From contig JAUSJA010000008.1 in NCBI GenBank assembly GCA_030647905.1, positions 124,001 to 188,000 on the forward strand: a stretch of 64,000 nt of DNA, given 5' to 3'. Shown piece by piece: positions 53,252 through 54,822 of the stretch. The translations under genes were made by a program, and so were the position numbers. Below the pieces are notes generated by a model. The model saw only the letters and a program-made list of their open reading frames with translations, made no database searches and was not told the origin of the DNA. The first letter of the stretch is position 1; each line of letters begins with the position of its first letter. This stretch comes from Gemmatimonadaceae bacterium. GTDB lineage: Bacteria > Gemmatimonadota > Gemmatimonadetes > Gemmatimonadales > Gemmatimonadaceae.

Positions 53252-53632
53252 GTGGAGCAAGTAAAGACTGACATGGCGCCGGCTGCGATCGGCCCGTATT
53301 CGCAGGCCGTGATCGCCAACGGATTCCTTTTCTCGGCCGGACAGATCGCGCTCGATCCCGCCACCGGCCAGATGGTCGAGGGGGACATCACGCGGCAGAC
53401 CGAGCGCGTGATGCAGAACCTGCAGGCGGTGCTGGAAGCCTCCGGGCTCGCGTGGAAGGATGTCGTCCGAACCACGGTGTATCTGCACGACATGGCCCAT
53501 TTCCCGGCGGTCAACGAGATCTACGGAAGGTGGATCGGTGATGCGCGCCCATCCCGGTCCACCGTTCAGGTGACCGCGATTCCGCGCGGAGGACTGGTCG
53601 AGATGGACATGATCGCCGCCACCGGCCGTTAA
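53252..53632 (+). CDS. ridA: RidA-family reactive intermediate/imine deaminase
   Basis: The 126-residue trimeric enzyme hydrolyses reactive enamine/imine intermediates from PLP enzymes. Diagnostic features are AIGPYSQAVIANGFLFSAGQ, the Arg region VVRTTVYLHDM, and the C-terminal ARPSRSTVQVTAIPRGGLVEM containing the carboxylate-binding Arg. It starts at a GTG 60 nt after tatD and ends 18 nt upstream of selD. Its product protects PLP enzymes generally; no specific link to selenium is implied. Confidence 0.93.
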   Translation: MEQVKTDMAPAAIGPYSQAVIANGFLFSAGQIALDPATGQMVEGDITRQTERVMQNLQAVLEASGLAWKDVVRTTVYLHDMAHFPAVNEIYGRWIGDARPSRSTVQVTAIPRGGLVEMDMIAATGR

Positions 53633-53650
53633 CATCTGCAAGGAGTCGTC

Positions 53651-54721
53651 GTGAGCACATCCAGGACCCGCGAAGAGCTGTTTCGCCTGACGGCATTCGC
53701 GCGGTGTGCTGGTTGAGCGTCCAAGATGGGTCCGGGTGACCTGTCCGAGATGCTCGCGCCACTTCCCGCGTCGAAGGATCCGCGCCTCCTCGTAGGCCGC
53801 GAGACCTTCGACGATGCGGGAGTGTATCTGCTGTCCGACGAGATTGCGCTCGTCCAGACAGTGGATTTCTTCGCGCCCATCGTTGACGACCCATACGACT
53901 TCGGACAGGTCGCCGCCGCCAACGCACTCTCCGACGTGTACGCCATGGGCGGACAGCCGCTCACCGCGCTCAACATCGTCGCGTTTCCGACTGGCGAGAT
54001 TCCGCTGGCGGTGCTCACCGAGATCCTGCGCGGCGGTCAGGACAAGGTCCATGAGGCCGGCGCGCTCATCGTTGGCGGCCACACCGTTATCGACAGCGAG
54101 CTCAAGTACGGCCTGGCGGTGACAGGTCGCGCCCATCCTTCGTTTCTGCTGACGAATGCAGGCGCCAAGCCGGGGGACAGGCTCGTGCTCACGAAGCCGA
54201 TCGGCAACGGAATTCTCGCGACAGCGCTCAAGCGCGCGTCGGCAGGGGACGAGAAATTCCGGACGATGATGAACGATTCCATCGCCGGCGCGATGCTCGA
54301 CGGAATGAAGACGCTGAACGGCTCAGCCAGCCGCGCCGCTCTCGCCGCGGGCGCAAAATGCGCCACCGACATCACCGGCTTCGGACTGCTCGGGCACGCG
54401 TCCCACATCGCGCGAGGCAGCGGCGTCACGCTGCGCATTCACTCGGCGTCCGTTCGGCGGCTTGCGGGCGCGGAGAACGCGTGGAGCGCGGGTGCGTCGA
54501 GCGATGGGTTGAGGCGCAACTCCGAGTACCTCGAGCCGCTGGTCGAATGGGGAACGGTATCCGGCGTGACGCGCGCTCTGCTGTGCGATCCGCAGACGTC
54601 GGGAGGGCTCCTCGTCGCCGTGCCTTCCGCGCGTGTTGCGGAGTATCTTTCCCGCGTGAATGGAGCGACTGAAATCGGAGAAGTGATCGAGCGAGACGGA
54701 TTTGCCATCGCGGTGGACTGA
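53651..54721 (+). CDS. selD: Selenide, water dikinase SelD, itself a selenoprotein (in-frame UGA)
   Basis: SelD makes selenophosphate from selenide and ATP. Ordinary ORF calling begins at the ATG at 53726, but an in-frame extension with AGGAG upstream starts at GTG 53651. It reads FRLTAFARCAG-U-ASKMG, with the TGA at 53714-53716 exactly where E. coli SelD has catalytic Cys17 (RLTQYSHGAGCGCK); K25 matches Lys20. The 356-residue protein continues with VQTVDFFAPIVDDP, ANALSDVYAMGG, TDITGFGLLGH and LCDPQTSGGLLVAV. I read UGA as selenocysteine, supported by an 8-bp hairpin 9 nt downstream and selC immediately after. Confidence 0.92.
53717..53745 (+). promoter_or_regulatory. Candidate bacterial SECIS element
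   Basis: Directly after the UGA of selD, 53725-53732 pairs with 53738-53745 (8 bp, two G-U) around a five-base loop CGGGU. The loop begins 16 nt after the UGA, close to the spacing of the E. coli fdhF SECIS read by SelB. Confidence 0.6.
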
Positions 54722-54725
54722 GCAT

Positions 54726-54822
54726 GGGGGTGGATGGGGCCTGGTGGCTTCCCCAGTCTTCAAAACTGGTGTGACCCGACTTCGTCGGGCCGGGTGGGTT
54801 CGATTCCCACACTCTCCCGCCA
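54726..54822 (+). tRNA. selC: tRNA-Sec (anticodon TCA)
   Basis: The selenocysteine tRNA starts 4 nt after the selD stop. The anticodon stem CCAGT/ACTGG encloses the loop with TCA at 54760-54762. The long variable arm has a 6-bp stem, and the T arm is GTGGG-TTCGATT-CCCAC. A 6-bp D stem with 4-nt loop, 8-nt acceptor 3' strand, discriminator G and encoded CCA fit tRNA-Sec. The 8-bp acceptor as aligned has two mismatches, so its 5' boundary may be slightly off. Confidence 0.92.

Follow-up and report, generated by a model that had tools for sequence, protein, structure and literature searches.

The selD locus

The stretch of DNA analysed here (64,000 nucleotides, hereafter the window) belongs to a 3.1-Mb draft genome of 37 contigs, 98.6% complete, whose closest named relatives are metagenome assemblies of Gemmatimonadaceae or Gemmatimonadota. 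It carries a selenophosphate synthetase gene, selD, located between a ridA-like gene and selC, the tRNA gene for selenocysteine (Sec). The features of the locus are the following:

53252–53632, + strand: ridA-like gene, named from its translation; neighbour order conserved in relatives
53641–53645, + strand: Shine-Dalgarno-like AGGAG, 5 nt ahead of GTG 53651, read from the sequence
53651–54721, + strand: selD, 356 codons, predicted Sec at residue 22; identified by the TIGR00476 profile and by alignment with E. coli SelD
53714–53716, + strand: UGA, the predicted Sec codon, aligned with Cys17 of E. coli SelD and compared among related loci
53715–53755, + strand: predicted bacterial SECIS element, from folding and comparison with relatives
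53715–53721 / 53749–53755, + strand: lower stem of this element, not conserved in all relatives
53723–53725, + strand: AAG encoding Lys25, aligned with the essential Lys20 of E. coli SelD
53725–53732 / 53738–53745, + strand: upper stem of the element, 8 bp, its conserved part
53726–53728, + strand: ATG at which ordinary ORF calling begins selD, not conserved as ATG
53733–53737, + strand: loop CGGGU, 5 nt, beginning 16 nt past the UGA
54719–54721, + strand: true terminator of selD, also TGA
54724–54822, + strand: selC, tRNA-Sec with anticodon UCA (Rfam bounds 54726–54818; 69 bits, cut-off 47)

Start and catalytic motif of selD

Ordinary ORF calling gives just a 331-residue selD frame, from ATG 53726. 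The first-pass annotation, made from the sequence alone, had proposed that this frame lacks the catalytic N-terminus of SelD, that the gene begins at GTG 53651 behind AGGAG and that an in-frame UGA, within RLTAFARCAG-U-ASK, replaces catalytic Cys17 while Lys20 is kept. All these elements are present, and profile scores and alignment bear the proposal out. Indeed, GTG 53651 is the sole in-frame ATG, GTG or TTG between TGA 53714 and the upstream stop of the frame, which is the TAA of ridA (53630–53632). When the UGA is read through (RLTAFARCAG-U-ASKMGPGDL), the score against the SelD equivalog profile TIGR00476 rises from 342.9 bits for the frame from ATG 53726 to 365.7 bits, the start of the match moves from profile position 16 to position 1, and the match covers positions 1–308 of 311.

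The readthrough product aligns over nearly its full length with SelD of E. coli (3u0o; 222.9 bits) and of Aquifex (2yye, 2zod; 201.8 bits), the catalytic motif and the Lys being kept; 2yye is taken here to be the Aquifex enzyme. In the alignment with 3u0o, U22-A-S-K25 stands opposite C17-G-C-K20, the UGA facing the catalytic Cys of AGCGCK. The arrangement typical of SelD, a catalytic Cys or Sec followed three residues on by a Lys, is thus found as U22/K25, and every row of this SelD type, whether TGA or Cys, has this Lys. Two features distinguish it from the E. coli enzyme: UGA occupies the catalytic position, where the E. coli chain has Cys, and Cys19, the other Cys of the E. coli motif, gives way to Ser or Ala in this SelD type.

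According to another explanation, translation would start at ATG 53726, leaving the upstream frame untranslated and yielding an N-terminally short SelD-like enzyme. This is the gene that ordinary ORF calling delivers, and the short form still scores above the curated equivalog cut-off of TIGR00476 (125 bits). However, an N-terminus at this ATG is unlikely, because the codon is CTG or CTC in 11 of the 32 TGA relatives and because the short form is devoid of both Sec22 and Lys25, i.e. of the catalytic Cys/Sec and Lys. Furthermore, no Shine-Dalgarno-like sequence was seen ahead of ATG 53726, and all relatives show conserved SelD sequence in the residues encoded 5' of the UGA, which leaves the short enzyme with hardly any credibility as an account of this gene.

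Exchange of Sec and Cys codons among relatives

Related SelD genes were collected from related genomes and by a scan of genome contigs, giving 126 loci that correspond to 110 distinct genes once near-copies and one short fragment are dropped. At the position of the UGA, these 126 loci carry TGA (74), TGC (43) or TGT (9) and no other codon. As in bacterial selenoprotein genes, the in-frame UGA therefore exchanges with Cys codons. On the SelD protein tree, the Sec/Cys label changes 14 times overall, 13 of these changes being forced by well-supported branches, and 9 changes occur inside this SelD type. The tree is compatible with both orders of change, so that Cys may have replaced Sec or Sec may have replaced Cys.

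A TGA that is only one base away from TGC, in a gene whose relatives include Cys forms, might also be a nonsense mutation or a sequencing or assembly error in a former TGC gene, and a misread TGC or TGT had been named beforehand as a finding that would overturn the Sec reading. However, the same TGA recurs in dozens of separately assembled genomes from several phyla, and the hairpin located downstream is kept with TGA and mostly lost without it (see below). As a general explanation, mutation or error is already excluded by the relatives, and for the present gene it is exceedingly improbable.

A hairpin that tracks the UGA codon

The first-pass annotation had also described an 8-bp hairpin, with its loop 16 nt after the UGA, as a bacterial SECIS. 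The hairpin is found at 53725–53732/53738–53745 with loop CGGGU and, like known bacterial SECIS elements (bSECIS), it is a stem-loop lying directly past the Sec-UGA, within the coding sequence, with a small G-containing loop. The published bSECIS model (PMC13188914) specifies a loop of 3–9 nt, a stem of 4–16 bp, a G in loop positions 1–2, a spacing of 16–37 nt and a minimum free energy of at most -7.5 kcal/mol. The selD hairpin agrees with it on every point (loop of 5 nt with G at its position 2, stem of 8 bp, spacing of 16 nt and -21.2 kcal/mol), its UGA-to-loop spacing being equal to the lower limit of the model. Judged by folding alone, the 47-nt element that starts at the UGA is moderately unusual (z -2.85; 3 of 200 shuffled sequences fold as well), and it is the comparison of relatives that goes well beyond chance.

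This SelD type is represented in the comparison by 47 distinct genes, of which 32 have TGA and 15 a Cys codon. Taken over its full 47 nt, the element separates the TGA and Cys genes of this phylum weakly by folding energy (mean z -0.72 and 0.25, respectively; Mann-Whitney p 0.006 on z, 0.15 on energy), and therefore the apical stem and the codon usage within it were compared, a test selected after inspection of these same sequences. The apical 4-bp stem GGUC/GACC is intact in all 32 TGA genes but in 1 of the 15 Cys genes, and the Gly codon located five codons after the UGA is GGT in 32/32 TGA genes against 3/15 Cys genes, comparisons for which Fisher p values ignore the relatedness of the genes. 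Elsewhere in the same TGA genes, GGT represents 15% of the Gly codons. When relatedness is considered through 8 independent pairs of the tree, the apical stem tracks the Sec/Cys codon in 7–8 of them and runs opposite in none (sign test, p 0.008–0.016). The stem is thus kept with TGA and gone with Cys in this SelD type, as expected of an element selected as RNA. Taken together, these data support the view that the hairpin behaves as a SECIS, for which binding of SelB and readthrough are predicted.

The sister families f2 and f3 lack the apical stem at its fixed position (0/17 rows). Their selD genes carry a different hairpin, located some 32 nt past the UGA, mostly GCGCA-GGUCY-UGCGC, which is present in 17/17 TGA and 0/4 Cys genes, a contrast that corresponds to three independent pairs only. 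Such SECIS-like hairpins occur at loci L018–L028, L030, L037, L128, L129, L133 and L138.

Sec machinery and gene order

Absence of selA or selB from the genome would have spoken against a Sec codon; both were found and checked as genes. With 533.8 bits, selA lies on a different contig, and selB, with 353 bits, shares the contig of the window. The selC gene that begins just past the selD stop is the sole tRNA-Sec above the cut-off in the genome. Therefore, as expected for a selenoprotein producer, selA, selB, selC and selD are all found in one genome.

The machinery was surveyed in 61 genomes (this one and relatives), 60 of which could be scored, one having a partial selD only. A tRNA-Sec was found in 43 of the 46 genomes with SelD (32/35 with TGA-SelD and 11/11 with Cys-SelD) and in none of the 14 without. 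SelB scored above its cut-off in 30/35 TGA-SelD, 10/11 Cys-SelD and 4/14 no-SelD genomes. Every TGA-SelD genome has SelB, tRNA-Sec or both, and gaps in draft assemblies may account for the missing ones. Two genomes depart from the usual pattern: G029 (98% complete) carries a selB-like gene (309.7 bits), yet selD and tRNA-Sec were not found in it, and the f1-family genome G033 carries a divergent Cys-SelD gene (locus L017) with selB and tRNA-Sec nearby on the same contig, a cluster perhaps acquired horizontally.

Gene order around selD is highly conserved. The sequence downstream was long enough for this comparison in 44 genes of this type, and in each of them a tRNA-Sec gene lies 3' of selD in the same orientation, no more than 50 nt away in 43 of them and overlapping the end of selD, by the bounds used, in the remaining one. 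A ridA gene upstream recurs in most loci of this type, and a small protein and murI (RidA and MurI being both named from translations) recur downstream in most loci where the contig reaches. The order ridA-selD-selC is common to the Sec and Cys forms and is therefore not a consequence of the UGA. As the gap between ridA and selD is 18 nt, the two genes are probably co-transcribed; scans for promoters and terminators in the vicinity of selD yielded no signal that clearly exceeded chance. Genes selA, selB and selD often lie near unusual tRNA-Sec genes (PMC5330540), and the fixed adjacency of selD and selC could possibly couple the supply of tRNA-Sec to selD transcription.

A second selenoprotein gene

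As the first-pass annotation had suggested, the genome was searched for other selenoproteins. A search for the AhpC-TSA family revealed a peroxiredoxin with one in-frame TGA:

L147:551–1021 (G000:C34:21250–21720): PrxQ-type peroxiredoxin gene with in-frame UGA, same genome as selD

This TGA (21382) lies at the peroxidatic position (FFYPKDNTSG-U-TREACDF). Among NCBIfam families, the protein is nearest to PrxQ/BCP-type thiol peroxidases, with a score under their curated cut-offs. Thirty orthologues were fetched (own gene included), 14 with TGA and 16 with TGC or TGT. The 14 TGA rows share a hairpin with an invariant loop GGUUC, paired in 100% of the cells. In some rows both partners of a pair have changed, which concerns three pairs and 8 cells, a number that none of 500 shuffles reached. 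This hairpin is lost or weakened in the Cys rows, and the PrxQ gene is accordingly predicted to have a covarying SECIS of its own. Its loop thus differs from CGGGU in selD of the same genome and from GGUCY in selD of the sister families f2 and f3.

Decoding of UGA as another amino acid, through genome-wide recoding or general suppression, would account for the readthrough itself and for nothing else. However, selD and the PrxQ gene both terminate in TGA, Cys is the sole exchange partner of the UGA, the hairpin is locus-specific and the genome holds a full Sec machinery, so that Sec is preferred and any other amino acid has next to no chance of being the one inserted.

A probable selenoprotein that would make its own selenium donor

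From these comparisons, selD almost certainly encodes a Sec-containing selenophosphate synthetase, translated from a GTG start by SECIS-directed readthrough of UGA, which needs its own product and supplies PrxQ. Ribosomes would start at GTG 53651, and SelB with Sec-tRNA-Sec (encoded by selC and charged through SelA) would bind the hairpin just 3' of UGA 53714, where Sec would be inserted as catalytic nucleophile of the 356-residue SelD. This enzyme is expected to make selenophosphate from selenide and ATP. Since selenophosphate would be the selenium donor for Sec-tRNA, making SelD would require the product of SelD. The enzyme would also supply at least one other selenoprotein, the PrxQ peroxiredoxin.

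Sec in SelD had been presented in the first-pass annotation as known from other bacteria, in agreement with the literature (PMC4561486, PMC13188914). Indeed, Sec-SelD, with SPS2, is a well-known kind of selenoprotein, and the present gene shares with it the family (TIGR00476), the position of the UGA, Cys as the only alternative and a genome encoding the Sec machinery; it differs in that selC directly follows selD. What is added here is its occurrence in a phylum that has received little study, supported by evolutionary evidence of unusual clarity. Gemmatimonadota is not named in the selenoproteome literature text-searched for that phylum, in which this work places Sec use, and none of the publications combining Gemmatimonadota and selenoprotein terms, mostly as judged by title or abstract, is about this selD. 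Besides correcting the annotation of a key gene of selenium metabolism, the repeated Sec/Cys switches at one codon, tracking an RNA element, provide a natural set of cases well suited to testing what a SECIS requires.

What the Sec trait serves

Selenoproteins were sought by targeted family searches, so that the list for this genome, Sec-SelD and Sec-PrxQ, is partial. Because neither selenouridine synthase nor formate dehydrogenase was found in the genome, selenophosphate would most simply be used for Sec synthesis, which narrows the reasons why the Sec trait is retained. Two candidates were rejected: FdhA, since the only two PF00384 proteins look, from their sequences, like ActB and NuoG, and a ResA-like WAxxUGC selenoprotein, for which there were weak matches only, without stops. 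All selenoproteomes of a previous set held FdhA or SelD (PMC1794560), a pattern that the present genome fits through SelD.

Within the same genus, three genomes have kept selB and selC with a Cys-SelD, namely G012 (98% complete) and the less complete G014 and G016. No formate dehydrogenase candidate was found in them (PF00384, E up to 1e-20), their PrxQ has Cys or no close PrxQ was found, and no selenoprotein was found in them in the three families searched (SelD, PrxQ and formate dehydrogenase). As selB and selC are nevertheless kept, it is conceivable, although rather doubtful, that an unrecognised selenoprotein maintains the Sec trait in this lineage, and it might also exist in the genome of the window. 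Five other relatives with Cys-SelD (G019, G034, G036, G039 and G058) encode a TGA-containing protein of the molybdopterin family, which is likely a Sec-FdhA.
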